Positions 2,577-19,417 of a DNA stretch of 50,397 bases are shown in pieces. This stretch comes from Metasolibacillus sp. (GTDB taxonomy: Bacteria > Bacillota > Bacilli > Bacillales_A > Planococcaceae). Numbering within the stretch: the first letter of the stretch is position 1; each line of letters starts with the position of its first letter. The notes beneath the pieces are model-generated. The model did no database searches, was not told the origin of the DNA, and was given only the letters and a program-made list of their open reading frames with translations. The DNA is taken from positions 1 through 50,397 of the forward strand of contig NZ_JAMBIZ010000029.1 in the NCBI RefSeq assembly GCF_025291715.1. The letters run 5' to 3'. A program made the translations under genes and the position numbers.

Positions 2577-2610
2577 TTAAGGTAAGAGAGGCTGTAATTT
2601 AATAGAAAAT

Positions 2611-2885: not shown

Positions 2886-2914
2886 CTGTTACATTCAAGC
2901 TTTGATACAACGTT

Positions 2915-3445: not shown

Positions 3446-3566
3446 AATAATCCCCCCTATTGTTTTCTCTTATTGAAATATTTTACACTATTATGCTACT
3501 ATTTTTGAAACCCTTTTTCTTATCCACACGTAAATATATTAAAAAAATACCAGGGAGGTTAATTAT

Positions 3567-3932: not shown

Positions 3933-3969
3933 TCAGAAGTAAAAACAAACACCTGAGGAGGTGCCATCT

Positions 3970-5589
3970 ATGAACCTAATCAACTTCGAACAACAAGTCG
4001 ATGCAAAAATTCTAAGGCGAGGTCAAGACTATTTCAATGGAGGGCAAGTTGGTCCAATTAGCAATTTAGAAGATGGGGAATATGAAATCACAATCTATGG
4101 CAGCGAACTATACGAGGTGTTGGTGACGATGGATTCAAATGCCAATATCTTGTACAGTGCATGCACATGTCCTTATGATTATGGGGATATTTGTAAACAT
4201 GAGGTCGCTGCCTTTTATGCATTGCGTGAGCTGTATGGGGAAAAGAAGAAGCCCGTAAAAATGCTCAAACAATTATTAGAGGAGCAGTCGAAAGAGAAGT
4301 TAATTGCTTGTTTATTGGATTTAAGTCGAGATATTGAAGGGGTTAGTGAACGTTTGATGTTCAAGTTTTCTGAGCAGGATGGTTCCATTGAGAGCAGTCG
4401 AAATTTAATTCGCAACTCGGTTGAGCGTTTTGCAATAGGGGGTTTTGTTTCATGGAAATATGTAGATGATGCGCTGCAAGGGGCATATACGGTGTTGGAG
4501 ACGATTAGAGAGCAAATAGAAGCTTCAAAGCTGCCATTTGCGTTACAGTTAGCCTTAATGGTGCTTGAAGAAGTAGCGGATATGATTGGTTATGCAGATG
4601 ACTCTAGCGGTGATATCAGTAATGTAATGATGAATGCACTTGGAAATGTTGAAGAAGTATGTGAGTTAGCTGTTGACTTCTCGTCAGAAGAGGAGAAAAT
4701 GACAATATTCCAATTTATTCGAAAGGCAGCGGAGAAACAAAGTTTAGCTGATTGGGAAGAGGACTTACTTTACGCGATGATTCTTTTATGTGATACGGTA
4801 GAGCGAAAAAATACATTTAAAGAAATTTTAAATCGATTAGAGCACAGTGCTGCAGAGCATCAAGATGATTGGCGTAGGAAATATGAGCTTCAAAGTGCAC
4901 AAAATATTCGTAAAGCCTTTCTTGAAAAGACAGAGGATAAGCAGACTGTTGAGGCATATATGCTACAAAATATTGCTAATGATCGTTTTAGGGAAGAGCT
5001 GCTCAAGCAAGCTGCTGCCGTAAAGGATTATAACAAGCTACTGAGTTTATTGCCCAGAGATTCACGAAAGCAATGGCTGGAGCTGGAGCTTATAGCATAC
5101 GAAGGATTAGGCGATGTGGGGAAGCAAAGGCAAATTTTGAGAGAGCTCATTGTAGAAGGTAAGCAAGATTATTATGATAAATTGAAGGCTTTATATCCAC
5201 ATGAGGAGTGGTCTGCTGTGAGAGATGAAATGCTTGACGAACTAGCAGCGCAATCTTCCATATATAGCATTTATGCGGATATTATTATTAAAGAAAAACT
5301 ATGGCAACGCCTTTTAGTTTTATGTGAGCAAAGTAGGACGGATATTGAAAGGTATTATTCATATTTAGCTGACGATTATGCAGAGGAAGCTAAAGGGATC
5401 TATAAAAAAGCAATTTTAATGGAGGCCGCTCAAGCAAGCAATCGTAGTCACTATAAAGCAGTTTGTAGACTGTTGAAAAGCTTTAAAAGAGATTGTGGGA
5501 AGACGGAGGCATATGAATTAATTGAACAACTTGCAATTACCTATAAAAAACGACCAGCGTTTTTGGATGAGTTGGGGAAGGTTAAGTGA
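3970..5589 (+). CDS. SWIM zinc-finger protein
   Basis: Of 539 residues, the N-terminus carries a SWIM motif, CxCx7CxH, at C65, C67, C75 and H77 (ACTCPYDYGDICKHEVAAF). SWIM domains bind zinc and mediate DNA or protein contacts. The rest is a long helical, repeat-like region rich in Glu, Leu and Arg, resembling TPR/HEAT-like scaffolds, with no catalytic motif seen. The ATG at 3970 is preferred over GTG 3961 because GAGGAGGTG lies 6 bases upstream of it. The gene is followed by a terminator and then the Wadjet operon, so it is probably a separate transcript. Confidence 0.85.
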   Translation: MNLINFEQQVDAKILRRGQDYFNGGQVGPISNLEDGEYEITIYGSELYEVLVTMDSNANILYSACTCPYDYGDICKHEVAAFYALRELYGEKKKPVKMLKQLLEEQSKEKLIACLLDLSRDIEGVSERLMFKFSEQDGSIESSRNLIRNSVERFAIGGFVSWKYVDDALQGAYTVLETIREQIEASKLPFALQLALMVLEEVADMIGYADDSSGDISNVMMNALGNVEEVCELAVDFSSEEEKMTIFQFIRKAAEKQSLADWEEDLLYAMILLCDTVERKNTFKEILNRLEHSAAEHQDDWRRKYELQSAQNIRKAFLEKTEDKQTVEAYMLQNIANDRFREELLKQAAAVKDYNKLLSLLPRDSRKQWLELELIAYEGLGDVGKQRQILRELIVEGKQDYYDKLKALYPHEEWSAVRDEMLDELAAQSSIYSIYADIIIKEKLWQRLLVLCEQSRTDIERYYSYLADDYAEEAKGIYKKAILMEAAQASNRSHYKAVCRLLKSFKRDCGKTEAYELIEQLAITYKKRPAFLDELGKVK

Positions 5590-5610
5590 ATTTAATATAG
5601 TTCGCACAAA

Positions 5611-5640
5611 AAGCCTGAACAATTAAGCTTGTTCAGGTTT
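5611..5640 (+). terminator. Terminator between the SWIM gene and the Wadjet operon
   Basis: CCTGAAC (5614-5620) and GTTCAGG (5631-5637) form a hairpin 25 bases after the stop codon, extended by G-T and A-T pairs and followed by TTT. Confidence 0.6.
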
Positions 5641-5684
5641 CACCGTAGTCAATTAATTTTCCTACCGCAACCTCCCTCAATCTT

Positions 5685-5693
5685 TGCTATACT
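5685..5693 (+). promoter_or_regulatory. Probable extended -10 promoter of the Wadjet operon
   Basis: TTTGCTATACT contains TGn directly before TATACT (5688-5693), an extended -10 element, 22 bases before the jetD start codon. No good -35 box is visible 17 bases upstream, as expected for this promoter class. The leader would be very short. Confidence 0.4.
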
Positions 5694-5715
5694 AATAACA
5701 ACTGGAGGGGGCAAC

Positions 5716-6750
5716 ATGAAAGACCAATTACTTCAATTTAAAAAAACATTTATCACATTAGCTGAATTAGAGCAGATTGTCGGAAGGCCTGAGACGTATG
5801 AGCAGTTTGCAGCAATTGTGCAAGATTTAGTGAATGAGCAGTTATTACAGCCTGTGAGAAATTCAGGGAACCCCCCGCAATCTCCTCAACTCTACTACAA
5901 ATATAAGATTTTGAAGCATTCTGTGAAGAAAGAGCTTCGAGAGACGATTGAACGCTTGCAATTAACACTACATGAGCGCATTTCTTTAGATGCATATTAC
6001 CGCCTTACACAAACTCAGCTTGAACAGGATTTACCATACATTGAGAAAATACATACATATTTAATGGCAGAAGGGTTACCAACATTATCAGCGCCAGCGC
6101 CAGAGCGAAGTCAACAGATTATGGGTGATGAAAAATGGATTCAATATAACGGGGGACGGCGTCTATTAGAACGACTCAGCTTATGGGCAGATATGCAAAT
6201 TGTCGATGTAAAAGAGCCGCTGCGATTTGCGCTGAACCCGCAAAATATTGGACGGTCAACTCATTACCATTTAATTGTAGAAAATAAAACGACTTATGAG
6301 GCGTTATTGCCAGCACTTTCAGCAACTTGCTTTACGACATTAATATATGGAGCAGGCTTTGAAATTGTTGGGAGCTTGAGCTTGTTTCCAAAGCAGCTGC
6401 CATTACCATATGCCAACCACATATTTTATTACTTTGGCGATATTGATTTTGCAGGCATATCGATTTGGTATTTATTGAATAAACAGCAGCATGTGGAGCT
6501 AGCAACGCCATTTTATGAAGCGGCACTTACTGATTTAGGGAAGCCAATAGCTAAAAAGCAATTAATTGATGAAGAAGCGATTCAGGCATTTATGAAACGA
6601 TTACATGAAGAGGCAAAGATGCAGTGTCAGCAATTAGTTGAACAGCGCTATTATGTGTCTCAAGAAGTGCTAACGACAGCGGAGCTACAGCAAATATGGC
6701 AGCGAATGAGTGCGGAATTAGTGGGGGATGCCAATGGAATGGAGTTTTGA
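5716..6750 (+). CDS. jetD: Wadjet nuclease subunit JetD
   Basis: JetD is the topoisomerase-VI-like (Toprim) endonuclease subunit that cleaves closed circular plasmid DNA after loop extrusion by the JetABC SMC complex. The 344-residue protein has a helical N-terminal half of the DUF3322 type and a C-terminal DUF2220/Toprim region. The latter carries the diagnostic YYFGDIDFAGISIW (about residues 237-250), whose acidic DxD residues bind metal. The ATG at 5716 follows GGAGGGGG. It is the first gene of the operon and overlaps jetA. The family and motif make the call strong, although JetD varies widely between Wadjet types. Confidence 0.9.
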   Translation: MKDQLLQFKKTFITLAELEQIVGRPETYEQFAAIVQDLVNEQLLQPVRNSGNPPQSPQLYYKYKILKHSVKKELRETIERLQLTLHERISLDAYYRLTQTQLEQDLPYIEKIHTYLMAEGLPTLSAPAPERSQQIMGDEKWIQYNGGRRLLERLSLWADMQIVDVKEPLRFALNPQNIGRSTHYHLIVENKTTYEALLPALSATCFTTLIYGAGFEIVGSLSLFPKQLPLPYANHIFYYFGDIDFAGISIWYLLNKQQHVELATPFYEAALTDLGKPIAKKQLIDEEAIQAFMKRLHEEAKMQCQQLVEQRYYVSQEVLTTAELQQIWQRMSAELVGDANGMEF

Positions 6751-8224
6751 TATTACGACAGGCTTGAGAGAGCGTATGCGGCGTATTTATTTGTTTGAGC
6801 CATTGTATGAGCTTGCAGCGAAGCAACAAAAGGATGATGATGGGCAAGATATTGATATGCGTATGCTTGGTTTGTTGACATTGCTTTATTTTTTTGAAAT
6901 GAAGCTTATGCGTGAGTCGAAAGTCGGGATAGAGGAGGCAGCGAATTATTTGCGACCGCTTATTCAGAAACGCTATAACGTTGCCGATGAGCGAGTGCAT
7001 ACGTTGTTATTAGCTGTTAAAGAAATTTTTCGACCAGCGAAGGGGCTTTATAAAACGTATTCCTTTTACAATTGGGAAACAGAAAAGGTGGAGGAGATTC
7101 CTTTTTCCTTTTTGAAAACAGATTTTTTTGATGTGAAGGAAAATCGGCAATATTACCAATTAGACGACGATGGCTTGGAGCTTATTTTTGCAACAAAAGA
7201 GTATTTTCAAGAGTTCCAACTGTCGATTCATCAGTTGATGCTACGCAAGCTGTTGGAGAAAGGCGAGCTACAAGGGGCGTTACGGCAAATTAATGAGATG
7301 CGCATGGATGTGGAGCAGCTGCACGAGCGAATGGAGAAGCTATCACATGAGATTAAGCGCAACATTATTAATATGGAGACCCAGCAGCGTTTTATGGAAG
7401 TGCTGCAAGATCGCAATTTACGTTTGCAGCGTGAAAATACCGAATTTGAGGAGCTGCATAAATTTATTGTTGATGCGAAAAAGGCATCCGAATCGACAAC
7501 GAATGAGGAGGATATGCGCGCTTTTCGAATGCTGATGAAAATTGAGGAGGCGCTGATGGCTGTGCATGAGCAGCATCGCGCATTGCTGACACATAGCTTA
7601 AAGCTTAAGCAGGAGGCGCTTGAGGCAGCAGAGCAGTCGCTTTATAGCATCGGGGTAGATAATTTTAACTTTGATCAAGAAATTGTTTCGGAAATTGTTA
7701 GTACGCCGTTGCCACTTGAGTCGATGAAAGGAATTTTAGCGCCATTTTTAAAAGTTGGGCATAAAAAAATGTGGTCATTGCTAACTATTTTTAGTGCGCA
7801 ATCGTGGTCAGAGGAAGAGCAAAGTGCTGAATTGGCACGCTATGAGGAAATTGTTGAGGAAGAGAAGCGAGAGCAGTATGCGAAGCAAATAAGGACATTA
7901 TATGGCGCTTATATGAAGTCAATGCTTGCCTTTGCCGAAGGGCATCAAAGCTGGACAGTGCAGGACTGGCTTGAGCATATAAAAGAACAGAATGATTTTT
8001 CATTGGATGCACGCTACCTTTATGATTTTTTACTGCTTTGTCATCACCGCTCACCTCTCTATAAAGATAGCAACAATGCAGATGAGCAATCGTTGCATTT
8101 GTTGATAGAGGTAACAAGTTTACTTGGCGACCGTCAATTAGTGATTGAAGAATTACCGAATATATTGCAACCTACGAAGCGTTATTCGATTCAAAATCTA
8201 CAATTCAAATGGCAGGAGGGATAA
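6734..8224 (+). CDS. jetA: Wadjet subunit JetA (MukF/kleisin-like)
   Basis: JetA is the kleisin-like subunit that bridges the JetC ATPase heads. The protein (496 aa) has winged-helix-like N-terminal sequence (FDITTGLRERMRRIYLFEPL), then a long coiled-coil central section (about residues 150-310, e.g. MRMDVEQLHERMEKLSHEIK), and a helical C-terminus. This resembles the DUF5716/PF18982 type of JetA rather than the DUF3375 type. GTGGGGG lies 6 bases before the ATG at 6734; an in-frame ATG at 6728 is also possible. It overlaps the end of jetD, indicating translational coupling. Which Wadjet type this is cannot be settled without alignment. Confidence 0.85.
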   Translation: MEWSFDITTGLRERMRRIYLFEPLYELAAKQQKDDDGQDIDMRMLGLLTLLYFFEMKLMRESKVGIEEAANYLRPLIQKRYNVADERVHTLLLAVKEIFRPAKGLYKTYSFYNWETEKVEEIPFSFLKTDFFDVKENRQYYQLDDDGLELIFATKEYFQEFQLSIHQLMLRKLLEKGELQGALRQINEMRMDVEQLHERMEKLSHEIKRNIINMETQQRFMEVLQDRNLRLQRENTEFEELHKFIVDAKKASESTTNEEDMRAFRMLMKIEEALMAVHEQHRALLTHSLKLKQEALEAAEQSLYSIGVDNFNFDQEIVSEIVSTPLPLESMKGILAPFLKVGHKKMWSLLTIFSAQSWSEEEQSAELARYEEIVEEEKREQYAKQIRTLYGAYMKSMLAFAEGHQSWTVQDWLEHIKEQNDFSLDARYLYDFLLLCHHRSPLYKDSNNADEQSLHLLIEVTSLLGDRQLVIEELPNILQPTKRYSIQNLQFKWQEG

Positions 8225-8225
8225 T

Positions 8226-8966
8226 ATGCTATATCAACAAGAGAAAGTAGAGCGTGCCTTTGAGATGTACAGTGAGCTGGCAATGGAAGGGCGTGTGACA
8301 GGAGAAGCTGTCCGCTTATTTAAAATTGATACTGACTTTCGAGCTTTAGTTGAGATGTTTTGTAAAAAAGTACAGGCCATTTGTATTGAAGTAGGTGATG
8401 AGGTGCTGCTTGTGCCTGAAACGAGGCTATCACCATTCCATGTAACAAACGAAGCGTTAAAGCGCGAATATTTTAAATCAAAAGGTCGCAATGATGATTT
8501 ATATTTAATGTATTTTGCGACGATTTGTGTGATTGGAGAGTTTTATAATGCCTTTCATTCCATTCATCCAACGCGTCCGTTTATTACAATTGAAGAGTGG
8601 ATTCAAGCGATTGATCGTCGGATGGCAACATTGCGTGAATATGATGAGGAAACATTGAAGGAGAAGGAAAAGCAGTATTCCTATCGTTGGCATATGCTGT
8701 TAGAAAAATGGGACGGGCTTGATGATGTCAAGGAAACAGCAAAGCGCCAAAGCGCCAATACGATGAGTAGAGTAAGTTTTTTACATACAACATGTCGCTT
8801 TTTGCGTGATGAAGAAATATTGATTGAAACAGGTATTGGTGAATTTGAGCTGACCGAAAAAGCGAAAGTCATTATCGGAAATTATTTTATGGATTCAGAA
8901 TATAATCGAGGAATTATCGCCTTTTTATATAGCATGAAGGAGGAAGACGATGCCGACCATTACTAA
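8226..8966 (+). CDS. jetB: Wadjet subunit JetB (MukE-like, DUF4194)
   Basis: JetB is the small winged-helix (KITE) subunit that binds JetA in the Wadjet SMC complex. The 246-residue protein is all helix and short strand, with the DUF4194-type layout. It begins MLYQQEKVERAFEMYSELAM and ends with a segment (SRVSFLHTTCRFLRDEEILI) typical of the second winged helix. The ATG at 8226 follows AGGAGGG, one base after the jetA stop codon. The 3' end overlaps jetC by 17 bases. The position between jetA and jetC is as expected. Confidence 0.87.
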   Translation: MLYQQEKVERAFEMYSELAMEGRVTGEAVRLFKIDTDFRALVEMFCKKVQAICIEVGDEVLLVPETRLSPFHVTNEALKREYFKSKGRNDDLYLMYFATICVIGEFYNAFHSIHPTRPFITIEEWIQAIDRRMATLREYDEETLKEKEKQYSYRWHMLLEKWDGLDDVKETAKRQSANTMSRVSFLHTTCRFLRDEEILIETGIGEFELTEKAKVIIGNYFMDSEYNRGIIAFLYSMKEEDDADHY

Positions 8967-11900
8967 AATTCGTTTTGCTAATGTCATTTATGAGCAAGGC
9001 TCAAAGCGCTATCATGATGAAACATTTCAATTTAACACGCATAATGGAGCGATTTTATTAGAAAATGGCGGAGGTAAGACCGTATTTATTCAAGCGGCGA
9101 TGCAGGCAATTATTCCGCATGCCACTGTTGCTAATCGCCAAATTAAAGAAACCTTTTATTTAGAGGAAGGACCTGCACATATTGCAATTGAATGGCTGCT
9201 GAACGAGCGACCACGCCAATATGTCGTGACAGCTGTTACCCTTTATACAAAAAATAATAAAGTAGAATCGCTACGTTATGTTTATGAATATGGTGAGGGC
9301 GATAAGCAGGCTATTGATGCGATACCTTTTACGAAGCGAGAAGCGGGGATGCAATATCCAGCAAGCAAGGATGATATGCAGCTTTATTTTCAAGGAATTG
9401 TACAGCAAACGCCGATGCGCGCAAAGCTTTTTCCACAGTCGATTAAGGCTTTCACCGATTATTTAGAGAGCAATTATTTTATCATTCGTGAAGAGTGGGA
9501 AAATATGATTGTGATGAATAGTGCAGAAGGCGGCATCGAAAAGGTTTTTGAGGAGTGCAAAGGGACGCAGGAGCTATTTGATCGTTTGTTGATTCCTTCT
9601 GTTGAAAATGCCGATAAGCATTTCAATCCGCTTAGTATGGCTGATCAGTTTGAAAAACAGCGCAGCAATTTAAAAAAATATAAAGAGTTTAATGAAAAGA
9701 AACTTGAATACTATGCGATGCAGGAGCGTATGGAGCAATATGTGCATAAATTCCGAGTTTATAATGATGCCTTGGTGAACTATAGGGAACAGCAGCAACA
9801 GGCGGTAGCATATGTTCACTACTTGCAGCAACAGCGAGAGCAGGCGGAGAAAGATGTGAAATTGATTGAAGAACAGCTTGCCGATTTGAAAAATGTACAG
9901 CAACAGCTTGTGCAGCGTCAGCAAGCATTAACGATTTATAAGGAGCAGGACAAGCAACGACAGCTACAAGAAGAGTTAATTGTAGCTGAAGAAAAATTCA
10001 ATCAAATTGAAAGCAAGCTCAAGGTACGTCAGCTTGACAAAGCTTCATTAGAATATGCAATAGATGCAGAAAAGCTGAAGCAAGCGGAGGAAACGATTGC
10101 CCATGCGCGTGTACTATTGCAGCAAGAAAATGAAAAAGAGGATATTGATGATTTACAAAATGAGCTAGAGCTGTACAAAGGGCAATGGCTTTATTTATTA
10201 GAAGTAAAAAAAGAACAGCTACAAAATAAATTAGCTGCAACAACACGTGATATCCAAAAGCTAAAGAATAAGGAGCTTGAAATTACCTCAAATTTAGAGG
10301 AGACACGCAAGGATATGCAAGAGGCGAGCAAGCGTGTAACTAAAAATGACACATTGATTCAAGAAAAATCGAAGCAATTAACACAGTTAAAGCGTAAGCT
10401 AGTAGCGCATGAAAATGAGCAAGTAGAGGACTTATTGAAGCAATGGATTGGGCGTGCCACACAATTAGAGCAAACAAGCCATGAGCATGAGAAACATTTG
10501 AAGGTACTGGAGCAGCAAGCGGTGGAACAGCAACAAATGAGCAAGCTGTTAGTAGAGAAACAAGTAGACTTAGAGAAGAAAATTAGTGTACTTGACCACC
10601 GACTACAGTCATTTGAGGAAGAGGAAGCATCAGTGAAAGCTCGTCTACAAACGGTCTTGCATCAAATGAGCATGACTGCACGCATTTATGACCGCGCGAT
10701 GAGCTACACAAACCAGCTACAGGAAAAAATAACGCAGTTACAAGCCGACCATGCAGAAAAACTAGTTGTGGAGCGTAAAGCGAGGCGTTATTTGGATGAC
10801 TATGGCGGGCAAAGCCAATTTTTTGCTGAGCCATATTTAGCTGAGCAAATCCAGCATTGGTCACAGTTTACACATATTCAAACAGGTGTTGATTATTTGC
10901 AATCATTAGAAGAAGCAATTGATGTGCAGCAAATTGCCTACCCATTTTGGGCGATAACGCTTATTACAACTGCAAATGAAAGGCAGGCATTGATTGATAA
11001 AGTGCATGTGCTGGCAGATAAGCTAACAACACCAATTGTTGTGTTAACACGTGAAGAGGCAAAACAGCTTGTACAAGGTGAGCCATTTGATGAGGCATGG
11101 ATTGCTCCGTTATTTTGGCGAGAGCATGTAGATAAATCTGCGTTTTTACAATGGAAGCAAAGCGCAACAGCAGAAGCGAGCTTTGTGGAAAAAGAGCGTA
11201 AGGAAATCGAAAAAAAGCTATCAGACGTGGAGCAAGCTTATACGACGCTGACAACATTTCTTGAAAAATATCCATATGAGCATTTTAAGCAGTTAAATGA
11301 GCAACACTTTGAGGCAAAGGAAGCGCATAGTAAGGCTGAATATGATTTACGTCAAGTAGAGCAAAAAATAGCAGAAACCGAAACAACGAAAAAGCAAGTA
11401 GAACAATTATTACAGCAAGAAAAAGAGGAGCTGCGCAATTTAAATTTTGAGCGTATTCCGAATGCGCAGGAGTATCAGCGTATTCACAAGCAAATCGAGC
11501 CATTACAGGCACAGAAGAAAATCGATGAAGTAGAAGTGACCCGCTTAGTGCAAGTTGTGCAGCAGCTTTCGCAAAATAAAGATAATTTGCAGCAGCAATG
11601 GCTTGATATGACATCAGAAAAGCTAAATATTGAGCACAGTATCATGCATGAAATTGAACAGCACGAAATTTACCAGCAGCGAGCAGCATTAACGGTACGT
11701 GCTACGACATTGTCTGAGCATGCATTGAAGCTAGAGGTGACACGCATAGAGGAAGCGCTCAAGAAAATGTCCGCAACAATTCAGCAATTGCAGGAGCGAA
11801 TTGATACGCATGAAAAACTAGTGCGGGATTATCGCGATTCGCTTGAGCGCAAGCTTGCGGAACATCCAGCATTGGATAAACAAATAGCTTTACCAGTCCA

Positions 11901-13356
11901 ACCTGAGGGGATGCTAAAGCAACTTCAACAAGAAATGAATCGTTTAATTGCTGCAAAGGTAGAGCCATTGAGTGCTGTGGAGCAAAAAAAGGAAGCTTTG
12001 CAATCTTTAAAAGGCAGTATTCAGACATTAATTGCGCAATATGAAGGGGAGGTGCCAGCACGCACCGCTTCGATTGAAGAGCTACAGCAAGTGTTACAGG
12101 TTGATTTTGAACGCTATGAGCAGAAGCTTACTTATACGAAAAGTGAATATACGCGTATAAATAAGCAGGCAAAAAATTTAGCGTTAGCTGAGGAGCAGTC
12201 AAAGGATAGTTATTTCCGCCATCAGCTCAATAAAATTAAGCAAATTCCATCACTATCTACTGAGCAGCAAATAGCCTTTTTATATGAATATGAAAAAGAG
12301 CTAAAGCAAATTTTCGCAAAGCTAGATGCCAATTTGAAGGAATTGCAAAGTCAGCAGCAAATGATGGATAAGGAAAAGCAGCAATTCCGTCAGTTTTGTA
12401 CTACTTTGCAAGATCACAAGCTAAGTAAAGTGACGATGGATGGCATTGAAAATCATCATACGTACAAAGCAATAATGGAGCATCAACAGCTTATCAATCA
12501 AACGATTCAGCAGGCAATTCATCTTGCTGATGCAGCGATTCAAGAGTATGACAAAGACCAGCAGCAAATTATTCAATATGCCGTACAGCAGCTTGTTAGA
12601 ATCCGACATAATTTATTGGAAATTCCTAAAAAGACGCGTATTCGAACAGAGAACGAAACAAAAGATATGTATCAATTTGTTATTCCTGAGTGGGAGGAGC
12701 ATGAGGCAAAGGACGCGATTCGCGATTATATTAACTGGATTTTAACGACGCTTGAGCAAGATAAATACCGCGATGAGTATGGCAACGAGGATGTAGCGAG
12801 CATCCGCAAATTTTTGGAAAAACATTTGCAAACAGTGCCGTTGCTGCACCAAGTGCTTGGCAATAAAAAAATGCAAGTAAAATGCCGCAAAGTAGAAAGC
12901 GAGCGCCAAATCTCTTCTAACTTCTATAGCTGGGAGCAGTCCAATAAATGGTCAGGCGGGGAAAGCTGGAGCAAAAACATGGCCCTGTATTTAGGTATTT
13001 TGAAATTTATCGCAGAAAAGTCAGGCGGCCCAATGAATACGAAACGTAATCGCGCGCTCATACTCGATAATCCTTTCGGCAAAGCATCGAGCGATCATGT
13101 ATTAAGCCCTGTATTTTATATCGCCGAGCAGCTCGGTTTCCAAATGATTGCACTAACTGCCCATGCGGAAGGTAAGTACATCGCCGACTACTTCCCAGTC
13201 GTTTACAGCTGCCGACTTCGCTCGGTACGCAACGCATCACATCAAGTGGTTCAAAAAGAGCAGCAGCTAAACAAAGCCTTCTTTGCCGACAATCAGCCAG
13301 AGGCACTGCATTATGTTGGTGAGAGGAAGCAGATGACGTTGTTTGAGGATGAGTAA
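8950..13356 (+). CDS. jetC: Wadjet SMC-like ATPase JetC
   Basis: JetC is the SbcC/MukB-like motor that extrudes DNA loops and measures circular plasmids for cleavage by JetD. The 1468-residue protein has an N-terminal Walker A (LLENGGGKTVFIQ, about 36-48), two long coiled-coil arms rich in Gln, Glu and Lys flanking a central hinge-like segment (about 600-740, containing YGGQSQFFAEPYL), and a C-terminal head. The head shows the ABC signature WSGGESWSKN (about 1333-1343) and Walker B ALILDNPFG (about 1368-1376). The ATG at 8950 follows AAGGAGGAAGACG inside jetB. The length is normal for the family and no motif is lost, so the operon looks functional. Confidence 0.93.
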   Translation: MPTITKIRFANVIYEQGSKRYHDETFQFNTHNGAILLENGGGKTVFIQAAMQAIIPHATVANRQIKETFYLEEGPAHIAIEWLLNERPRQYVVTAVTLYTKNNKVESLRYVYEYGEGDKQAIDAIPFTKREAGMQYPASKDDMQLYFQGIVQQTPMRAKLFPQSIKAFTDYLESNYFIIREEWENMIVMNSAEGGIEKVFEECKGTQELFDRLLIPSVENADKHFNPLSMADQFEKQRSNLKKYKEFNEKKLEYYAMQERMEQYVHKFRVYNDALVNYREQQQQAVAYVHYLQQQREQAEKDVKLIEEQLADLKNVQQQLVQRQQALTIYKEQDKQRQLQEELIVAEEKFNQIESKLKVRQLDKASLEYAIDAEKLKQAEETIAHARVLLQQENEKEDIDDLQNELELYKGQWLYLLEVKKEQLQNKLAATTRDIQKLKNKELEITSNLEETRKDMQEASKRVTKNDTLIQEKSKQLTQLKRKLVAHENEQVEDLLKQWIGRATQLEQTSHEHEKHLKVLEQQAVEQQQMSKLLVEKQVDLEKKISVLDHRLQSFEEEEASVKARLQTVLHQMSMTARIYDRAMSYTNQLQEKITQLQADHAEKLVVERKARRYLDDYGGQSQFFAEPYLAEQIQHWSQFTHIQTGVDYLQSLEEAIDVQQIAYPFWAITLITTANERQALIDKVHVLADKLTTPIVVLTREEAKQLVQGEPFDEAWIAPLFWREHVDKSAFLQWKQSATAEASFVEKERKEIEKKLSDVEQAYTTLTTFLEKYPYEHFKQLNEQHFEAKEAHSKAEYDLRQVEQKIAETETTKKQVEQLLQQEKEELRNLNFERIPNAQEYQRIHKQIEPLQAQKKIDEVEVTRLVQVVQQLSQNKDNLQQQWLDMTSEKLNIEHSIMHEIEQHEIYQQRAALTVRATTLSEHALKLEVTRIEEALKKMSATIQQLQERIDTHEKLVRDYRDSLERKLAEHPALDKQIALPVQPEGMLKQLQQEMNRLIAAKVEPLSAVEQKKEALQSLKGSIQTLIAQYEGEVPARTASIEELQQVLQVDFERYEQKLTYTKSEYTRINKQAKNLALAEEQSKDSYFRHQLNKIKQIPSLSTEQQIAFLYEYEKELKQIFAKLDANLKELQSQQQMMDKEKQQFRQFCTTLQDHKLSKVTMDGIENHHTYKAIMEHQQLINQTIQQAIHLADAAIQEYDKDQQQIIQYAVQQLVRIRHNLLEIPKKTRIRTENETKDMYQFVIPEWEEHEAKDAIRDYINWILTTLEQDKYRDEYGNEDVASIRKFLEKHLQTVPLLHQVLGNKKMQVKCRKVESERQISSNFYSWEQSNKWSGGESWSKNMALYLGILKFIAEKSGGPMNTKRNRALILDNPFGKASSDHVLSPVFYIAEQLGFQMIALTAHAEGKYIADYFPVVYSCRLRSVRNASHQVVQKEQQLNKAFFADNQPEALHYVGERKQMTLFEDE

Positions 13357-13452
13357 GTATGTTTAATCATTTTACTTCCCAATATTTGATTGAGTATAAA
13401 ATAGTTTTGGTTAATAATAAACTAATTGATAGCTAAATCAAGAAAGGTATGA

Positions 13453-13877
13453 TTGAAAATGCTTTCTTTAGAAGGGTACATTTCAAAAAGAAAAATAGAA
13501 GATAAGATAAATGAGTATGACATTGATTCTAGAAATGAGAATATATGGATTTGTGTGAATTATATTTTTGAATATTTTAATCAATACTCAAATACTGAAG
13601 AAATAGGACAAAGGATTGGAGTAAATATAGAATAAATATTTGGATTTTTGCTTTTAATTATTTATCTCGTTTTTTTGATAATGATAGTTTATGGCCAGCA
13701 CAACATAGGATTAAAAGTAATGAAATAGGCATAAATTATTTTTATGATTATAAGCAAAAAAATAATCTTTTTAATTTAAATACACTTTACAGTAAAATTT
13801 CAAACAAATCTTTTGTTCAAGGTAAACAGCAATACATTGAAATAATTTTCATGTATATTTGGCTTCATAATATATGA
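13453..13877 (+). pseudogene. AT-rich gene split by a frameshift, family unknown
   Basis: A first frame opens at TTG 13453 (or ATG 13459) after AAAGG and encodes about 60 residues (LSLEGYISKRKIEDKINEYD ...), ending in TAA at about 13635. The same protein seems to resume in another frame (INIWIFAFNYLSRFFDNDSL ... IIFMYIWLHNI) and stops at 13875-13877. Joined, it would be about 140 residues, rich in Asn, Ile, Tyr and Lys. The base composition is clearly more AT-rich than jetC, pointing to separate acquisition. A programmed frameshift is not excluded, but I see no slippery heptamer with a following structure. Confidence 0.45.
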
Positions 13878-13979
13878 GGAGATGAAGATAATTATTGGGA
13901 ACAATATAGCGCCATAAATCTTTAACATAGGATTTAAAACAAGCTGAATAAATGCTCAAAATGTAAGGGAGTGAAATGA

Positions 13980-14978
13980 ATGCCAATCCAATCAGCACAT
14001 CTTCAAAATTTTACAGTGTTTGAAGATATGCAAGTGCAGTTTTCAAAAGGGATTAATGTGATTGTTGGAACAAATGGAACAGGAAAAACACATTTGATGA
14101 AGGTAATGTATGGGATTTGCGAAGAAATAAGTTCCAGCCAAGAAGATGAAGTAATGGATATTGCTCTAAGTTATTTTTCTGTGGAATCTCTACAATTAGT
14201 TAAAGTTAATGCCCAACAAGCAATCGTTAGTGTAGTTCTTACTGATGAAAATTCAGCAACTTATGAAATTGATAATTCACAAAAACGTAGCAAGAATACG
14301 TTGGACGGTTTTAATTTCCATTTAGATTTTAATGTGAAATCAATCTTCATCCCTGCAAAGGAAATGCTGTCCCATTCCAAAGGTCTTTTGGCACTTTATA
14401 ATAAATATAAAATACCTTTTGATAAGACGTATGTTGATATTGTTATTAATGCTGAATTGCCTGAAGCTCGTAATATGTCTAAGTTAAATGATGCTCTATT
14501 ACAAACCATTTCCAAAGTTATTGGTGGGGAAGTGCTACATGAAAACGGCATATTTTACATTAAAAAAGCGAATGGGGCGAAAATTGAATTTCCTGTAGAA
14601 GCAGAAGGTTTACGTAAGTTTGGTTTATTGTGGAAGCTAATAAAAAATGGCTTATTTGAAAAGGATACAGTGCTTTTTTGGGATGAACCTGAAGCAAATA
14701 TCAACCCAGAGCTTATGCCCATTTTAGTTGAATTAATGTTAGAGCTTGAACGAAAAGGCGTGCAGTTATTCATTGCGACACATAGTTATAACTTAGCAAA
14801 ATATCTTGAAATTAAGCGGAGAAAAGAAGAACAAGTGCTATTCCACCATTTACATCAAACTGAGCAAGGGGTACAAGTAGACAGTAGTGTTTATTTTGGC
14901 GAATTGGAAGATAATCCAATTATAGAAGCAGATACAAAATTATTGGATGAAGTCATTGAGGGAAATTTCGATGACTAA
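13980..14978 (+). CDS. AAA/ABC-type ATPase (AAA_21/OLD-like), putative defence ATPase
   Basis: The 332-residue protein begins IQSAHLQNFTVFEDMQVQFS, the usual first strand of RecF/OLD-like ATPases. It has Walker A GTNGTGKT (30-37), a signature-like segment (PVEAEGLRKFGLLWKL, about 201-216), Walker B with adjacent catalytic Glu (VLFWDEPEANINPEL, about 231-245), and an H-loop (FIATHSYNLAKYLE, about 262-275). It lacks coiled-coil arms and a fused Toprim, so it resembles the compact ATPases of two-gene defence systems such as PARIS or Septu rather than SMC or OLD. The ATG at 13980 follows AAGGGAGTG. Its end overlaps the next gene by 8 bases (ATGACTAA), so the two are translationally coupled. The role in defence is inferred from the layout and location. 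Confidence 0.85.
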   Translation: MPIQSAHLQNFTVFEDMQVQFSKGINVIVGTNGTGKTHLMKVMYGICEEISSSQEDEVMDIALSYFSVESLQLVKVNAQQAIVSVVLTDENSATYEIDNSQKRSKNTLDGFNFHLDFNVKSIFIPAKEMLSHSKGLLALYNKYKIPFDKTYVDIVINAELPEARNMSKLNDALLQTISKVIGGEVLHENGIFYIKKANGAKIEFPVEAEGLRKFGLLWKLIKNGLFEKDTVLFWDEPEANINPELMPILVELMLELERKGVQLFIATHSYNLAKYLEIKRRKEEQVLFHHLHQTEQGVQVDSSVYFGELEDNPIIEADTKLLDEVIEGNFDD

Positions 14979-15507
14979 TTGTAAAATCGTTGTGGAAGAG
15001 AATGGACGCTTTCAGTTTGACTTTTCAGCACTTGATTATGTATGGCAATTTCACGATAGTGTTGTGAAAACAATGCTAAGCGATGTTGATTTTATTACTG
15101 AAACTGCACAAGAGGTTGTTTTTATTGAGTATAAAAATGCTAATATTAAGAATGCAGTAAATCCAGATGCAATGCTACAAAAGATAAAGCATGAAACATT
15201 TTATTCTAAAATAGCACGCAAATTTTATGATAGTTTATTGTTATTTTGGGCATGTAAAGGAAATGAAAAAGAGCTTCCAATTACATTTGTATTAATTATT
15301 GAACATCCTATTTTAGACAAAAAGCTACGAAGACAATTGAAGTTGAAAATTGAAAAACAATTGCCATTACAGTTGAATATTCCAATGATTGCAAGACAAA
15401 TGATATCAAGCTTTGAAGTATTGAGCTTGGATGAATGGCAGGAGCGATTTCCACAGATTGTAGTTAGAGAAGTTATACCAATAGATGAAACTCCTACTCA
15501 GTTTTGA
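14971..15507 (+). CDS. Small partner of the ATPase with a PD-(D/E)xK-like motif
   Basis: I do not recognise the family. The 178-residue protein has an acidic pair in LSDVDF (D38, D40), followed after about 12 residues by VVFIEYKNANI (E53, K55). This is the D-x(n)-E-x-K arrangement on two strands expected of a PD-(D/E)xK nuclease core. The region after it (KIKHETFYSKIARKFYDSLL, then LPITFVLIIEHP) fits the helix and third strand of that fold. The ATG at 14971 overlaps the ATPase stop codon (ATGACTAA), with GAGGG upstream, so production is coupled to the ATPase. A terminator overlaps its last codons, closing a two-gene operon. Nuclease activity is inference. Confidence 0.7.
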   Translation: MTNCKIVVEENGRFQFDFSALDYVWQFHDSVVKTMLSDVDFITETAQEVVFIEYKNANIKNAVNPDAMLQKIKHETFYSKIARKFYDSLLLFWACKGNEKELPITFVLIIEHPILDKKLRRQLKLKIEKQLPLQLNIPMIARQMISSFEVLSLDEWQERFPQIVVREVIPIDETPTQF

Positions 15508-15521
15508 GGTAGGAGTTTTTT
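15488..15521 (+). terminator. Strong terminator overlapping the end of the ATPase-partner operon
   Basis: AAACTCCTAC (15488-15497) pairs perfectly with GTAGGAGTTT (15509-15518), followed by T's to 15521. The stop codon at 15505-15507 lies in the loop, so coding sequence and terminator are compacted together. Confidence 0.85.
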
Positions 15522-15522
15522 A

Positions 15523-16065
15523 TTCAATGCACATGACCGCAAATCGTGCGAAGGATTATTTGAAAAGCTAGTATTATCAAAATTTATTGTTGCAGGAAAA
15601 TATGATAAGAAAAAAAACGTATTCATTTAAATATTATCGCAGCAGACGAGTTTTATACGTATTATGATGGCGTGATTTATAACATCTTGTATTCAGGTGA
15701 TGTAGGCGAGGAAGAAATGGTTACATTTGTACAGGATTTTATTGTGCAAAATACAATCCAAAAGCTTGATTTTGAGAGAAAATATGAAGGCTGGGGTTCG
15801 ATGATGTGGGTTCTTGCTGTGGTAGGTATCCTGTTAGTATGTTTTATCATATTGCTTTTTTATATTGCAAATTTAAAAGGCAAAAGTAAAAAAGTGAAGG
15901 TGCTGATATTTGGTCTTGGTTTATTATTTATCATTACGCCATTAATCAGTGGGGCAATCGCTATGATGGCTAATGTTTGTTCTTGTGCTGCCAATCGGGA
16001 TTGTAGTTTCTTTGCTCATTACGATTTATGGTATTGTCCTCTTCATAAAGGATAGAAAAAGTTAA
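15523..16065 (+). pseudogene. Multi-pass membrane protein gene with two frameshifts
   Basis: A coding-like frame without a start (HDRKSCEGLFEKLVLSKFIV) runs into an A8 run at about 15610. One extra A there would join it to the next frame (IHLNIIAADEFYTYYDGVIY), which continues as a membrane protein with segments at about WVLAVVGILLVCFIILLFYI and VLIFGLGLLFIITPLI. Near 15985 the frame breaks again: another frame supplies a convincing hydrophobic end (LPIGIVVSLLITIYGIVLFI, then KDRKS and TAA at 16063-16065). Two breaks and a missing start argue for a pseudogene. The family is unknown. Confidence 0.55.
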
Positions 16066-16083
16066 ATCAAATCCATATAAAAC

Positions 16084-16112
16084 TTGTAGGATAAGAAGGG
16101 TTATGCTACAAT
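16084..16112 (+). promoter_or_regulatory. Sigma-A promoter of the SAM riboswitch transcript
   Basis: TTGTAG (16084-16089) and TACAAT (16107-16112) are separated by 17 bases, and the riboswitch P1 stem begins 17 bases downstream of the -10 box. Both spacing and position fit a vegetative promoter. Confidence 0.6.
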
Positions 16113-16128
16113 CAACATAATTTCATAG

Positions 16129-16229
16129 CTTATCAAGAGAGATTGAGGGATTTGGCCCGATGACGTCTCAGCAACCAGCTATTTGCTAGTATGGTGCTAA
16201 ATCCAATAGGCGAATGCCTTAAAGATGAG
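16129..16229 (+). ncRNA. SAM-I (S-box) riboswitch aptamer
   Basis: The sequence carries the S-box core in order: CTTATCAAGAGA (P1 and start of P2), GAGGGA, TGGCCCGATGA, CAGCAACC, GGTGCTAAATCC and the closing AGATGAG at 16223-16229, which pairs with CTTATC. S-adenosylmethionine binding normally promotes formation of the downstream terminator and shuts off expression. A terminator hairpin follows at 16254. The regulated gene is a cyclase-family hydrolase, not an obvious methionine gene. Confidence 0.93.
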
Positions 16230-16253
16230 TGGAATACGATTATATGGCAATCG

Positions 16254-16283
16254 AAGCTCTCTTTATAAAAAGAGGGCTTTTTT
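16254..16283 (+). terminator. Riboswitch-controlled terminator
   Basis: AAGCTCTCT and AGAGGGCTT form a stem around a short loop, followed by TTTTTT. It sits 25 bases after the aptamer and 28 bases before the start codon, the normal place for a transcription-attenuation terminator. Confidence 0.85.
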
Positions 16284-16310
16284 ACATTTTATAGAAAGCA
16301 GGGATGGACG

Positions 16311-17048
16311 ATGACGAATGATTTATTACAGGCAGTTGAGCTATTAAAAGGCAAGAAATGGGTGGATTTAACGCATACATTTGGACCAGATTCTCCGCAT
16401 TTCTTTATGTTTGAGGATGCTAAGTTTGAAACGTTATTTTCACATGATGACGGCTTTTTTGCACAGCAGTTTTCATTTCCAGGGCAATATGGGACACATA
16501 TTGATCCACCAATTCATTTCGTGCGTGATGCGCGCTATTTAGATGAATTAGATTTAAAGGAGCTTGTGCTGCCACTTGTTGTCATTGATAAATCGCAAGA
16601 GGCAGAGGTGGACAATGATTTTACTTTAAGCGTTGAGGATATTTTGGCATTTGAGGCAGAGTATGGTGAAATTGAGGCAGGTACATTTGTAGCGCTGCGT
16701 ACGGATTGGAGCAAGCGTTGGCCTGATAAAGAGGCATTCAATAATAAGGATGCGGAAGGTAACAACCATATTCCAGGCTGGGGCTTTGAGGCATTGCAAT
16801 TTTTATTTAAAGAGCGCAAGGTGAGTGCAGTTGGGCATGAAACATTCGATACGGATTCCGCAGCAGATTTCCGCAAAAATGGCAATCTTCAAGGAGAATA
16901 TTTCGTGCTAGAGCAGGATACGTATCAAATCGAGCTATTAACGAACTTAGATCAATTGCCAGCGAAAGGGGCAGTCATTTTTAATATTGTGCCAAAGCCT
17001 GAAAAAGCATCTGGCTTTCCTGTGCGCTCGTTTGCGATTTTGCCATAA
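16311..17048 (+). CDS. Cyclase-family hydrolase (kynurenine-formamidase-like fold)
   Basis: The 245-residue protein matches the cyclase family (PF04199), metal-dependent amidohydrolases that include KynB and isatin hydrolase. It begins with KKWVDLTHTFGPDSPHF and has the metal-binding box GTHIDPPIHF (about residues 63-72). A later GHETFDTDSA segment (about 181-190) carries the distal His, and the C-terminus matches the family (FPVRSFAIL). The substrate cannot be read from the sequence. Control by a SAM-I riboswitch suggests a role in sulfur or one-carbon metabolism. The ATG at 16311 follows CAGGGATGG. A terminator follows, so it is monocistronic. Confidence 0.88.
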   Translation: MTNDLLQAVELLKGKKWVDLTHTFGPDSPHFFMFEDAKFETLFSHDDGFFAQQFSFPGQYGTHIDPPIHFVRDARYLDELDLKELVLPLVVIDKSQEAEVDNDFTLSVEDILAFEAEYGEIEAGTFVALRTDWSKRWPDKEAFNNKDAEGNNHIPGWGFEALQFLFKERKVSAVGHETFDTDSAADFRKNGNLQGEYFVLEQDTYQIELLTNLDQLPAKGAVIFNIVPKPEKASGFPVRSFAILP

Positions 17049-17054
17049 TGATTG

Positions 17055-17093
17055 ACGCATGGAATCAATGAAAGTTGATTTCATGTGTTTTTT
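17055..17093 (+). terminator. Terminator after the cyclase-family gene
   Basis: ACGCATGGAATCAA (17055-17068) pairs with TTGATTTCATGTGT (17075-17088) through G-T wobbles, then TTTT follows. It lies 6 bases after the stop codon. Confidence 0.75.
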
Positions 17094-17169
17094 CGTATAA
17101 GATTCTGATAAAATCGGGCGAATTATACTTGTTAAACTACTCCAATAAAAGATAGGAGATAATGAAAGT

Positions 17170-18198
17170 ATGGAAAATGAAGTTAGTTTAGTTATTGGCA
17201 CATATCAAAAAGCACAAGCTAAAGCATTGCAAATCGTTACATTCAATACAGAGAAGCTAACGATAAAGTGGCAGATAGGCGTAGCAGAAATAGATTCACC
17301 TTCTTTCGTTGAGGTTTACCAATCGACTATTTTCGCTGTCAGTGAGGAAGAAGCTGGCTTTATATACAGCTATCATTACGATGGACAACAGCTAACAATG
17401 CTTAGCCGTCAATCAACGCATGGAGCAGCACCATGTTATATACGCTATGATGCAAGCAAGCGTGCTTTGTATGTCACAAATTATGTATCTGGCTCAATAG
17501 CAGTTTTTACAGTCAATGAACAATTCGAAATTCAGCCTTGTAAGCAGCTGATTCAGCATACAGGAAGCAGTGTGAATGTGGAGCGACAAGAGGCGGCACA
17601 TGCACACTCTATTGAAATTTTACCTTTTGCTACAGATTATAAAATTGTACAAGACTTAGGCTGTGACACAATTTCCTTATATTTTACTGAACCAGATGGT
17701 ATGCTAACACTTGTAAATACTTTTCAAATGCCATTAGGAAATGGTCCGCGCCATGTAGCTTTTCATAAGGAGCATAAGCTCGTTTATGTATTAAGTGAAT
17801 TAACATCAACGGTTGATGTATTGCAATTCGATGAAAACAAGCTAACTTTTGAATTAATTCAAACGATAGCTACATTGCCTAAAGGCTTTTTAGGTGAAAA
17901 TACAGGAGCAGATATTCATATATCGCCTGCAGAGGATTATTTATTTGCATCAAATCGAGGACATGATAGCATCACTATTTTTACGATCGATGCCCAAGGG
18001 CAATTAGCATGGCATCAATGTATGCATACAGGTGGAGAAACGCCACGTAACTTCGCAGTTATTTCAGATGATTTACTCGTCATCGGCAATCAAAATACAG
18101 ATAAGCTCACAATGGCAAAGCGTGATGAGTGTAATCTGTTTGCGTTGCAGCCTGTGGAATATTTAGTAGAAAAGCCTGTTTGTGTGAAGGTATTATAA
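17170..18198 (+). CDS. Lactonase-family beta-propeller protein (6-phosphogluconolactonase-like)
   Basis: The 342-residue protein resembles the seven-bladed lactonase family (PF10282; YkgB/Pgl-like), in which characterised members hydrolyse 6-phosphogluconolactone for the pentose phosphate pathway. Family blocks visible are LVIGTY at the start, HGAAPCYIRYD, YVTNYVSGSIAVF, HAHSIEI, GNGPRHVAFH, ISPAEDYLFASNRGHDSITI and GGETPRNFAV. There is no signal peptide. The ATG at 17170 follows AGGAG. It lies between a terminator and the HipA-like pair. Actual substrate specificity is not visible. Confidence 0.88.
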   Translation: MENEVSLVIGTYQKAQAKALQIVTFNTEKLTIKWQIGVAEIDSPSFVEVYQSTIFAVSEEEAGFIYSYHYDGQQLTMLSRQSTHGAAPCYIRYDASKRALYVTNYVSGSIAVFTVNEQFEIQPCKQLIQHTGSSVNVERQEAAHAHSIEILPFATDYKIVQDLGCDTISLYFTEPDGMLTLVNTFQMPLGNGPRHVAFHKEHKLVYVLSELTSTVDVLQFDENKLTFELIQTIATLPKGFLGENTGADIHISPAEDYLFASNRGHDSITIFTIDAQGQLAWHQCMHTGGETPRNFAVISDDLLVIGNQNTDKLTMAKRDECNLFALQPVEYLVEKPVCVKVL

Positions 18199-18240
18199 GG
18201 GGATTTAAGTTATAATAGATGATTAAAGGGAGTGAATGAT

Positions 18241-19047
18241 ATGGAAAGAATTATTATTCCGTTAGAAACTGTCCCAATAATCAGTACCTCGAGTAAAGGG
18301 GATCAATCGAAATGGCAAGTTGATAATAAGTGGATTAAGCAAAATACACGTGGTTATGAAGGACAAGCAGAGGTGCTCGCATCGCTTATTCTATCATGTT
18401 CTACGTTAACAGAACGAGAATATGTTAAGTATCATCTGTGCGAAATTCTATTGCCGAATGGAGAAACATCATTAGGATGTTATTCTTATGACTTTAGAGA
18501 GAAGTTGCAGGAAGTTACCCTGGAACGCCTATTTGAAGCAAATTTTTCATCAACCGATTCGATTTTAAATAATACTGCTTTATCAACTGAAGAAAAGTTT
18601 GAACAGCTACTGCGGCAAGTTGAGCTATATACAGGAATTAATGTACGTGAGGAATTAGTTCGTATGCTTGCATTCGATGCTTTAATTTTGAATGAAGATC
18701 GCCATACAAATAATATTTTATTTTTATATAATCCGATGCAAAAATCGTGGCGACTTGCGCCAATTTTTGACAATGGGCTTAGCTTTTTATCAGACGAAAA
18801 GGATTATCCACAGGGGAAGCCATTAACTATTTTAAAACGAAAAGTGAAGGCGAAACCGCTCAATTCAAATTTTTCAAAGCAACTTGCTTTATACAAAGGG
18901 CCTGCTTTTATTAATAAAACAAAGTTATTGCGAGCACTTGAAACAATAGATATTGATTTTGGACGAGCACAGCAAGTTTTACTATCACAATTGAATGACC
19001 CTAGTTTTGCACATCTTTTTTATGAAGGACGCGTTGCTAATGATTAA
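18241..19047 (+). CDS. HipA-like kinase domain protein
   Basis: The 268-residue protein carries the HipA-type kinase catalytic region: a catalytic loop LILNEDRHTNNILFL (about 148-162) and a metal-binding APIFDNGLSFLSD (about 172-184). HipA phosphorylates glutamyl-tRNA synthetase in persistence modules; other members have other targets. It is shorter than HipA (about 440 aa) and lacks the N-terminal subdomain, starting close to a strand-rich region with WIKQNTRGYEGQAEVLASLI. ATG 18241 is chosen over GTG 18232 because AAGGGAG lies 8 bases upstream of it. A TATAAT box lies at 18211. It overlaps the next gene by 8 bases. The split layout recalls HipBST, but no HipB-like HTH gene is next to it. 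Confidence 0.8.
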   Translation: MERIIIPLETVPIISTSSKGDQSKWQVDNKWIKQNTRGYEGQAEVLASLILSCSTLTEREYVKYHLCEILLPNGETSLGCYSYDFREKLQEVTLERLFEANFSSTDSILNNTALSTEEKFEQLLRQVELYTGINVREELVRMLAFDALILNEDRHTNNILFLYNPMQKSWRLAPIFDNGLSFLSDEKDYPQGKPLTILKRKVKAKPLNSNFSKQLALYKGPAFINKTKLLRALETIDIDFGRAQQVLLSQLNDPSFAHLFYEGRVAND

Positions 19048-19417
19048 CTATATGAAATTTGATGTAATGTGGATGGATGATGTAATTGCACATGTTGATT
19101 TAAAGCCTGCCAATGGTGGAACGCCTTATGTGATAAATTATATTGATGATTTTAATAAACAATTTTCTCCGAATATGGAAGGGCATATTAGCATTGAGGA
19201 GCTAGAGATGTGGCTGAAGTGGCGCACTTTTCCTCCGACTCGTGCTAACGCACAGGAGCTGTTAGAAAGCCTAGGTTTGCAGGCATATAATCGTTGGGGC
19301 ATTGTGCGAAAAACACATGGTGTCATGGCTGATGATGAGATTTGGCTACGCTTTGATGGTGAAACTTTAACACATCGAGATGTTTGCTTGCGGAAATATT
19401 TGTATTATCCAGAATAA
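19040..19417 (+). CDS. Small partner of the HipA-like kinase
   Basis: The 125-residue protein has no signal peptide or membrane segment. Its middle reads WLKWRTFPPTRANAQELLES then LGLQAYNRWGIVRKTHGVMA and DDEIWLRF, which looks like the conserved docking segment seen beside HipA-like kinases in Firmicutes. The ATG at 19040 overlaps the kinase stop (ATGATTAA), so the two are coupled. ATG 19052 is an alternative start. By analogy with HipS it may hold the kinase in check or supply a missing subdomain. That role is inference. Confidence 0.65.
   Translation: MINYMKFDVMWMDDVIAHVDLKPANGGTPYVINYIDDFNKQFSPNMEGHISIEELEMWLKWRTFPPTRANAQELLESLGLQAYNRWGIVRKTHGVMADDEIWLRFDGETLTHRDVCLRKYLYYPE

Follow-up and report, generated by a model that had tools for sequence, protein, structure and literature searches.

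A copy of the candidate two-gene defence system HEC-02 downstream of a Wadjet type III operon in Metasolibacillus sp.

Judged by sequence, the two overlapping genes that follow a complete Wadjet type III operon in Metasolibacillus sp. are a new copy of HEC-02, an already catalogued candidate defence system whose effect would be antiviral. The genes were analysed in a window of 50,397 nucleotides, which is the whole of the stretch of DNA presented. An earlier note had proposed them as a candidate undescribed two-gene defence system; the two-gene operon, the probable nuclease and the defence neighbourhood were upheld, while the word undescribed has to be dropped, because models of both proteins, named HEC-02A and HEC-02B, are present in the PADLOC database and the class is in print. 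The pair is thus of a kind that is known, though apparently little studied.

The locus and its assignment to HEC-02

Both open reading frames (ORFs) were confirmed (Table 1), and the small gene begins within ATGACTAA at the end of the ATPase gene, such that the two form an overlapping operon as the earlier note had described. In the sequence, the ribosome-binding sequence AGGGAG lies 5' of HEC-02A, and GAGGGA lies within the HEC-02A gene, 5' of the HEC-02B start. An alternative in-frame start of HEC-02B at 14947, inside the ATPase gene in the other frame, would give a protein of 186 aa. Because homologues vary in this respect, with a comparable upstream ATG in some and the shorter start only in L007, L009 and L004, the start at 14971 is preferred but not proven.

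The proposed terminator, which closes the operon inside the second gene, was recovered as a hairpin spanning the stop codon (15505-15507) and followed by a T run. The hairpin has a stability of -16.4 kcal/mol (z -4.14), and 0 of 200 shuffles were equally stable; it is absent from the output of a simple terminator scan, probably because of a bulge. Moreover, the Wadjet operon is complete, with JetD3, JetA3, JetB3 and JetC3 adjacent, and ends 623 bp before HEC-02A, consistent with the distance of 0.6 kb given earlier. The AT-rich setting is likewise evident: the GC content of 13001-16000 is 32.6-33.6%, which makes these the three lowest of 50 one-kb bins, the remaining bins having 34.0-43.9%.

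Table 1. Features of the HEC-02 locus, in positions of the window
Feature	Position	Strand	Remarks
Wadjet type III operon, complete (JetD3, JetA3, JetB3, JetC3, adjacent)	5629..13356	+	PADLOC
HEC-02A	13980..14978	+	332-aa OLD/Rad50-like ABC ATPase; PADLOC, AlphaFold2, Foldseek
Walker A, residues 30-37 (GTNGTGKT)	14067..14090	+	G30, G35 and K36 in 44/45 homologues, one gap
Walker B and D-loop, residues 232-243 (LFWDEPEANINP)	14673..14708	+	D235, E236, E238 and P243 in 45/45
H-loop (THS) histidine H268	14781..14783	+	45/45 homologues
ATGACTAA overlap, 8 bases	14971..14978	+	HEC-02B start inside HEC-02A end
HEC-02B	14971..15507	+	178-aa probable PD-(D/E)xK nuclease; PADLOC, conservation, model
E10 of HEC-02B	14998..15000	+	invariant, 45/45
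D40 of the predicted PD-(D/E)xK motif	15088..15090	+	D in 37, E in 8 of 45
E53-Y-K55 of the predicted PD-(D/E)xK motif	15127..15135	+	E53 and K55 in 45/45
Intrinsic terminator hairpin, then T run	15487..15519	+	spans HEC-02B stop codon
Probable right edge of acquired segment	15520		homology to pair-less G782 (L093) resumes after terminator

The assignment was made by a profile scan with PADLOC-DB v2.0.0 (2023). HEC-02A matched PDLC04213 with an E value of 9.3e-112 (residues 1-329 of 332, profile positions 1-333 of 337), and HEC-02B matched PDLC04217 with an E value of 4.7e-74 (residues 4-168 of 178, profile positions 3-167 of 169). The best matches of the ATPase outside HEC-02 were far weaker, i.e. 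AriA (1.6e-20), AbiLi (1.2e-15) and PD-T4-4_A (3.5e-13). Since both proteins match their models over nearly the full length and their genes are adjacent, the pair belongs to the catalogued candidate system. These matches exclude an undescribed two-gene system and amount to a clear match to a named system, which the earlier note itself had set against its proposal. Two labels in the database, PDLC04145 and PDLC04146, look swapped compared to the other HEC-02 models: HEC-02A is the label of the 170-position model, although this model matches the small partner, and HEC-02B is that of the 344-position model, which matches the ATPase.

A full-text search of the available papers with the one spelling HEC-02 gave one unrelated paper and no relevant one naming the system. 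According to the excerpted text of PMC12988326, HECs are 'Hma-embedded candidates', several of which are antiviral in a preprint cited there; excerpts of papers citing the Payne et al. preprint trace the HEC names to it, and the members named in this related literature, as excerpted and with PMC12988326 included, are HEC-05 or HEC-06. While the HECs are thus Hma-embedded by name, the copy described here stands after Wadjet III.

The right edge of the insertion likely lies at the terminator, as judged by alignment to one genome. This same-genus genome (G782, L093) does not carry the pair, and it matches the window at about 78% identity over 15520-15600 and 15601-17049; compared with L093, the window lacks about 0.9 kb at the junction of 15600 and 15601. 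In two further same-genus stretches, alignment with the window starts no earlier than 16050 or 16055. Judged by its position, the 127-aa ORF 3' of the operon is the end of a 379-aa gene of L093, and 15520-16055 would be a remnant of this gene, which is intact in L093 and cut at the probable edge. The pair is followed downstream by two genes, one a membrane-type ORF and the other a putative cyclase. On the other side, the gap between Wadjet and the pair (13357-13979) holds open-frame fragments in two frames, including a 60-aa ORF at 13453-13635, which are possibly a decayed small gene. Elsewhere in the window, 3961-5589 encodes a 542-aa protein with a match to the SWIM zinc finger (E 2.4e-4) directly before JetD. 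A same-species genome (L018) has a different 334-aa gene at this position, and a search of low sensitivity did not find the SWIM protein in four relatives. Finally, 18232-19417 contains a HipA_C-like gene (271 aa) and, after it, an overlapping 140-aa ORF, with a partial match to the PADLOC candidate PDC-M03A (E 8e-14).

The ATPase and its predicted nuclease partner

HEC-02A was described earlier as having all motifs of an OLD/RecF-like ATPase and neither arms nor Toprim, and both parts of this description hold. The Walker A, Walker B/D-loop and H-loop motifs are present and conserved in homologues, and F147, G183, E209-G210, K213 and L220 are further invariant positions among the 45 homologues. 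Pfam matches are to generic AAA/ABC domains, with no Toprim among the 13 families matching at E <= 1. In the structure model (pLDDT 86.5) the longest helix has 18 residues, and no long coiled-coil arms are predicted. The folds closest to this model, at E about 1e-14, are those of Rad50 heads and of Septu PtuA, and SMC heads are also among its nearest folds.

The arrangement D40...E53-x-K55, which the earlier note had pointed out in the small protein, is present and conserved. We aligned 45 HEC-02B proteins with a median pairwise identity of 20%; E53 and K55 are found in 45 of 45, position 40 is always acidic and K84 is present in 44, with one gap. These homologues were chosen with a family profile, and the set is therefore biased towards conservation. 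After a redundancy cut at 90% identity, the (D/E)...ExK residues are conserved in 43 of 43 proteins, and this conservation rules out a chance occurrence of the motif. In one more distant partner outside the 45-protein set, encoded at 7048-7596 of a BREX-2 locus (L099), ExR replaces ExK at the presumed active site. Moreover, comparison with a Lysinibacillus relative gave a dN of 0.14 and a dS of 1.9, showing that HEC-02B is under constraint.

AlphaFold2 with 14 sequences gave five models of HEC-02B with pLDDT 61.7-80.6, the best having a pLDDT of 80.6 and a pTM of 0.79. In the best model, D40 is placed just before a strand (41-44) and E53 and K55 at the end of a second strand (49-55), followed by a helix (75-96) and a strand (104-110). 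The order strand, strand, long helix, strand with these residues is the one expected for a PD-(D/E)xK core.

Individual fold matches to the model are weak. Foldseek returned 436 matches at E <= 10, the best at E 0.10 and none reaching E 0.001. BspD6I enzymes head the best 50 of these 436, with TM scores of about 0.33-0.37. Tallied by protein title and not by aligned domain, 29 of the best 50 of 436 are proteins that we take to contain PD-(D/E)xK nuclease domains, namely BspD6I (8), bunyavirus or arenavirus endonucleases (5), Hjc (4), HincII (3), McrBC, RecBCD and R2 elements (2 each) and Cdn1, HamAB and Avs4 (1 each); the other rows among the best 50 include plainly unrelated proteins. The top PDB profile match was a DUF1887-family protein, aligned over the D...ExK stretch with an E value of 0.26, which is not significant. 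Pfam gave no significant match in HEC-02B, whether to a nuclease family or to another, and NCBIfam and PHROGs gave nothing useful either. Altogether, the conserved residues and the topology of the model suggest that HEC-02B is likely a PD-(D/E)xK nuclease, with a predicted activity, and the earlier reading of the partner as such a nuclease is graded as probable.

Distribution, pairing and genomic neighbourhoods

The HEC-02 family is sparse. Among 398 genomes of the window's class, PDLC04217 matched in 4, counting that of the window itself. An alignment profile matched in 5 of 398 genomes of the phylum (one the window's own, one a chance match). With the window's genome counted again, it matched in 6 of 261 genomes of the window's family and in 3 of 5 of the genus. 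In another class of the phylum it matched in 25 of 380 genomes, several matches there being weak or partial. Other matches to the HEC-02B profile were dropped as chance: L011 had no ORF match, L016/L023 reads as a glycosyltransferase and L059 is a different 470-aa protein. Searching plasmids and phages with the window's HEC-02B by tblastn gave no match; a distant HEC-02B member found two plasmids and no phage, and HEC-02A found eight plasmids and two unverified phage records.

Pairing of HEC-02A and HEC-02B is near-obligate. The 45 pairs comprise HEC-02B proteins, de-duplicated by their last 60 residues, with the ATPase directly upstream; 43 of them remain at the 90% identity cut, and one has a HEC-02B frame of 72 residues. 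Taking the first possible start codon, the gaps between the two genes range from -80 to +9 bp. Left out of this set, having no accepted ATPase beside HEC-02B, were L049, in which the stretch ends 329 bases upstream, L088, in which it is cut, the broken or truncated copies L055 and L063 and a second pair in L039 with a different ATPase that falls below the cut. In L022, the ATPase gene is split (5885-8247): about 1.3 kb containing a 408-aa ORF separates about its first 60 codons from the rest, as an insertion would do.

In the reverse direction, a search for the ATPase in 151 genomes from a single family gave 23 loci (E <= 1e-40), and at 18 of these the profile detected a HEC-02B. The rest consist of one locus with a clear ExK partner, one with a fragment and three with no profile-detected partner; of these three, the ATPase is partial or interrupted in two, and in L085 it is followed by short frames only. 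Among viral contigs found via the ATPase, nine of ten loci have a HEC-02B (one a short frame; two alike), while L034, a very distant ATPase on a viral contig, has none. HEC-02B was also detectable in six of eight later plasmid or phage records, and none was detectable beside the ATPase of L097. Finally, the identity matrices of the two proteins correlate with r = 0.77, the maximum of 2000 permutations being 0.27, which supports co-inheritance of HEC-02A and HEC-02B and is not by itself a sign of physical interaction.

The neighbours of the pair are often defence genes. A same-species genome also has the pair after Wadjet III, with 98.5% identity over 5675-17048 of the window, and in Sporosarcina it lies about 0.1 kb 3' of the type I restriction genes HsdM-HsdS-HsdR. 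Several copies lie in BREX loci: between BrxC and PglX on the IMG/VR contigs L027 and L031, between brxC and pglX on a Methylomonas plasmid, in the same gene order (with mostly hypothetical names) on a Sphingobium plasmid, and after pglX, separated from pglZ by one gene, in a BREX-2 locus on a Polaromonas plasmid. On the IMG/VR contig L026, the pair lies between PglXI and BrxHI, followed by PglZ and preceded by a HEC-01 pair. The BREX-type locus of this contig (its positions 1387-7532) hence carries both HEC-01 and HEC-02 pairs. HEC-01B of this contig was considered as a relative of HEC-02B, and the comparison gave no support.

By annotation, L095, L096 and L100 have no evident defence neighbour. 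Tested in PADLOC, the neighbours in L019, L021 and L039 matched weakly or not at all except for the second L039 pair, those in L022 gave weak matches, and one of two in L005 matched DrmD and the other nothing. For many loci this survey extended over a flank of no more than 1.5 kb, and of the longer ones it left out L007, L009, L010, L020, L025, L028 and L030.

Proposed working and comparison with known systems

We consider it probable that, in the HEC-02 copy described here, an infection-sensing ATPase controls a toxic nuclease and that the pair supplements a primary defence as a backup. HEC-02A would dimerise via its ABC heads, bind HEC-02B and hold it inactive. Detection of an infection cue by HEC-02A would release or activate HEC-02B, which may then cut nucleic acid at a metal site formed by E10, D40 and E53-x-K55. 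HEC-02B would thereby stop the infection, probably at a cost to the cell, in an abortive outcome. The primary system would be Wadjet here and BREX or type I restriction elsewhere. By analogy with WonAB, which arrests translation, and with PARIS and Septu, which cleave tRNA, a cellular RNA such as tRNA is a more likely target of HEC-02B than phage DNA.

Alternatively, HEC-02B could attack invading DNA directly, being loaded by the ATPase on phage or plasmid DNA in a Rad50/SbcC-like or restriction-like manner, with no abortive damage to RNA. PD-(D/E)xK enzymes are mostly DNases, and Wadjet, BREX and type I restriction-modification, next to which the pair is found, act on DNA; moreover, the folds closest to HEC-02A include Rad50 and SMC heads. 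Nevertheless, we regard direct attack on DNA as possible rather than likely, given that the HEC-02A model has no long arms, that the pair has no methylase of its own and that the look-alike WonAB spares genomic DNA and stops translation according to the excerpted PMC12137116. A module of the toxin-antitoxin kind, in which a nuclease toxin and an ATPase antitoxin stabilise an island or plasmid and any defence effect is secondary, would agree with the short overlapping pair and with the plasmid copies, two of which are near toxin-antitoxin genes. We find this improbable, because several copies lie between core genes inside BREX operons, where addiction cassettes are not usually placed, and because the same-species copy is on a 3.96-Mb contig that is presumably the chromosome.

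Lastly, HEC-02B might have the fold and no nuclease role, as a degenerate or sensor domain. The weak fold scores, the change of D40 to E in 8 of 45 proteins and the ExR of L099 would fit, and inactive REase domains exist in defence systems (PMC12839542, in excerpt). By contrast, E10, E53 and K55 are kept in 45 of 45, as is typical when an active site is retained, and we hold the loss of the nuclease role to be very improbable.

A more speculative reading, which we rate as rather unlikely, is that HEC-02 is a tripwire for DNA-targeting defences, the ATPase detecting that the primary system is blocked by a phage anti-restriction protein and unleashing a compact E-D-ExK nuclease on cellular RNA. 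This idea draws on the places where HEC-02 is found, namely within BREX operons (BREX-1, BREX-2 and one of another BREX type) and next to Wadjet and type I restriction, and it likens the sensing to the detection of Ocr by PARIS. If true, restriction would have in HEC-02 a second guard, one whose nuclease differs in fold. The repeated placement of relatives in BREX operons also makes the idea of a built-in backup effector directly testable. Being compact and self-contained, with a predicted active site that is clear, the copy in the window is a good test case.

Among characterised systems, WonAB of Vibrio cholerae WASA-1 is alike in combining an ABC ATPase with OLD features and a PD-(D/E)xK nuclease, the nucleases being compared here by description only and from excerpts of PMC12137116. 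As excerpted there, WonAB was proven experimentally to abort phage infection, protection needs both genes and is lost in ATP-site and nuclease mutants, and overproduction of WonB leaves genomic DNA intact and stops translation. HEC-02A is more compact than WonA, with 200 residues from K36 to E236 compared to K34 to E300 in WonA (same excerpts). The published primer of the WonAB study had no match in the viral contigs. In the excerpted text, its authors relate WonAB to the operons of an OLD-ABC ATPase and a novel REase (Krishnan et al. 2020, via PMC12137116), which share the domain pairing of HEC-02 as far as a comparison by description goes, and they suggest that ATPase sensors with nuclease effectors make up a larger family. 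According to excerpts of PMC12839542, BREX and BREX-related systems contain OLD-ABC ATPases paired with HNH, PD-(D/E)XK or PIN nucleases, for which a backup role in BREX is proposed; compared by description, the PD-(D/E)XK modules share both the pairing and the BREX location with HEC-02.

PD-T4-4 has an ATPase distantly related to HEC-02A, for which the HEC-02A model scores far better, and its nuclease model is not among the 12 PADLOC families that match HEC-02B at E <= 0.1. About 7 kb from the HEC-02 pair of a same-genus genome (L039) lies a second ATPase and small D...ExK pair (15692-17363). Its ATPase is best matched by PD-T4-4_A (E 7e-24), and its small protein shares the signature D...ExK...K..DS and has no PADLOC match at E <= 1e-5.

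PARIS has the split design of ATPase and nuclease in common with HEC-02, and its AriA is related to HEC-02A; it detects Ocr and cleaves tRNA (PMC12839542), cleavage being by AriB (PMC12409363; both in excerpt). By contrast, HEC-02B has no DUF4435 or Toprim (Pfam, E <= 1) and no AriB match (PADLOC, E <= 0.1). Similarly, PtuA of Septu, a system that cleaves tRNA-Tyr (PMC13096335, in excerpt), is among the closest solved folds of HEC-02A, whereas HEC-02B is PD-(D/E)xK-like, with no HNH or PtuB match in Pfam and PADLOC. OLD nucleases (classes 1-3) and GajA differ in having Toprim fused to the ATPase, and in Gabija a UvrD-like GajB adjoins GajA, for which HEC-02B has no match. As the earlier note had found, the pair does not fit PARIS, Septu, Gabija or OLD, and the Pfam and PADLOC results together with the HEC-02A model exclude its membership in them. 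Pairs of an ATPase and a small nuclease recur in bacterial immunity, as in PARIS, Septu and WonAB. The catalogued HEC-02 has the same genes in the same order and with the same lengths as the pair in the window, its profiles are matched nearly from end to end, and none of the features tested differs.
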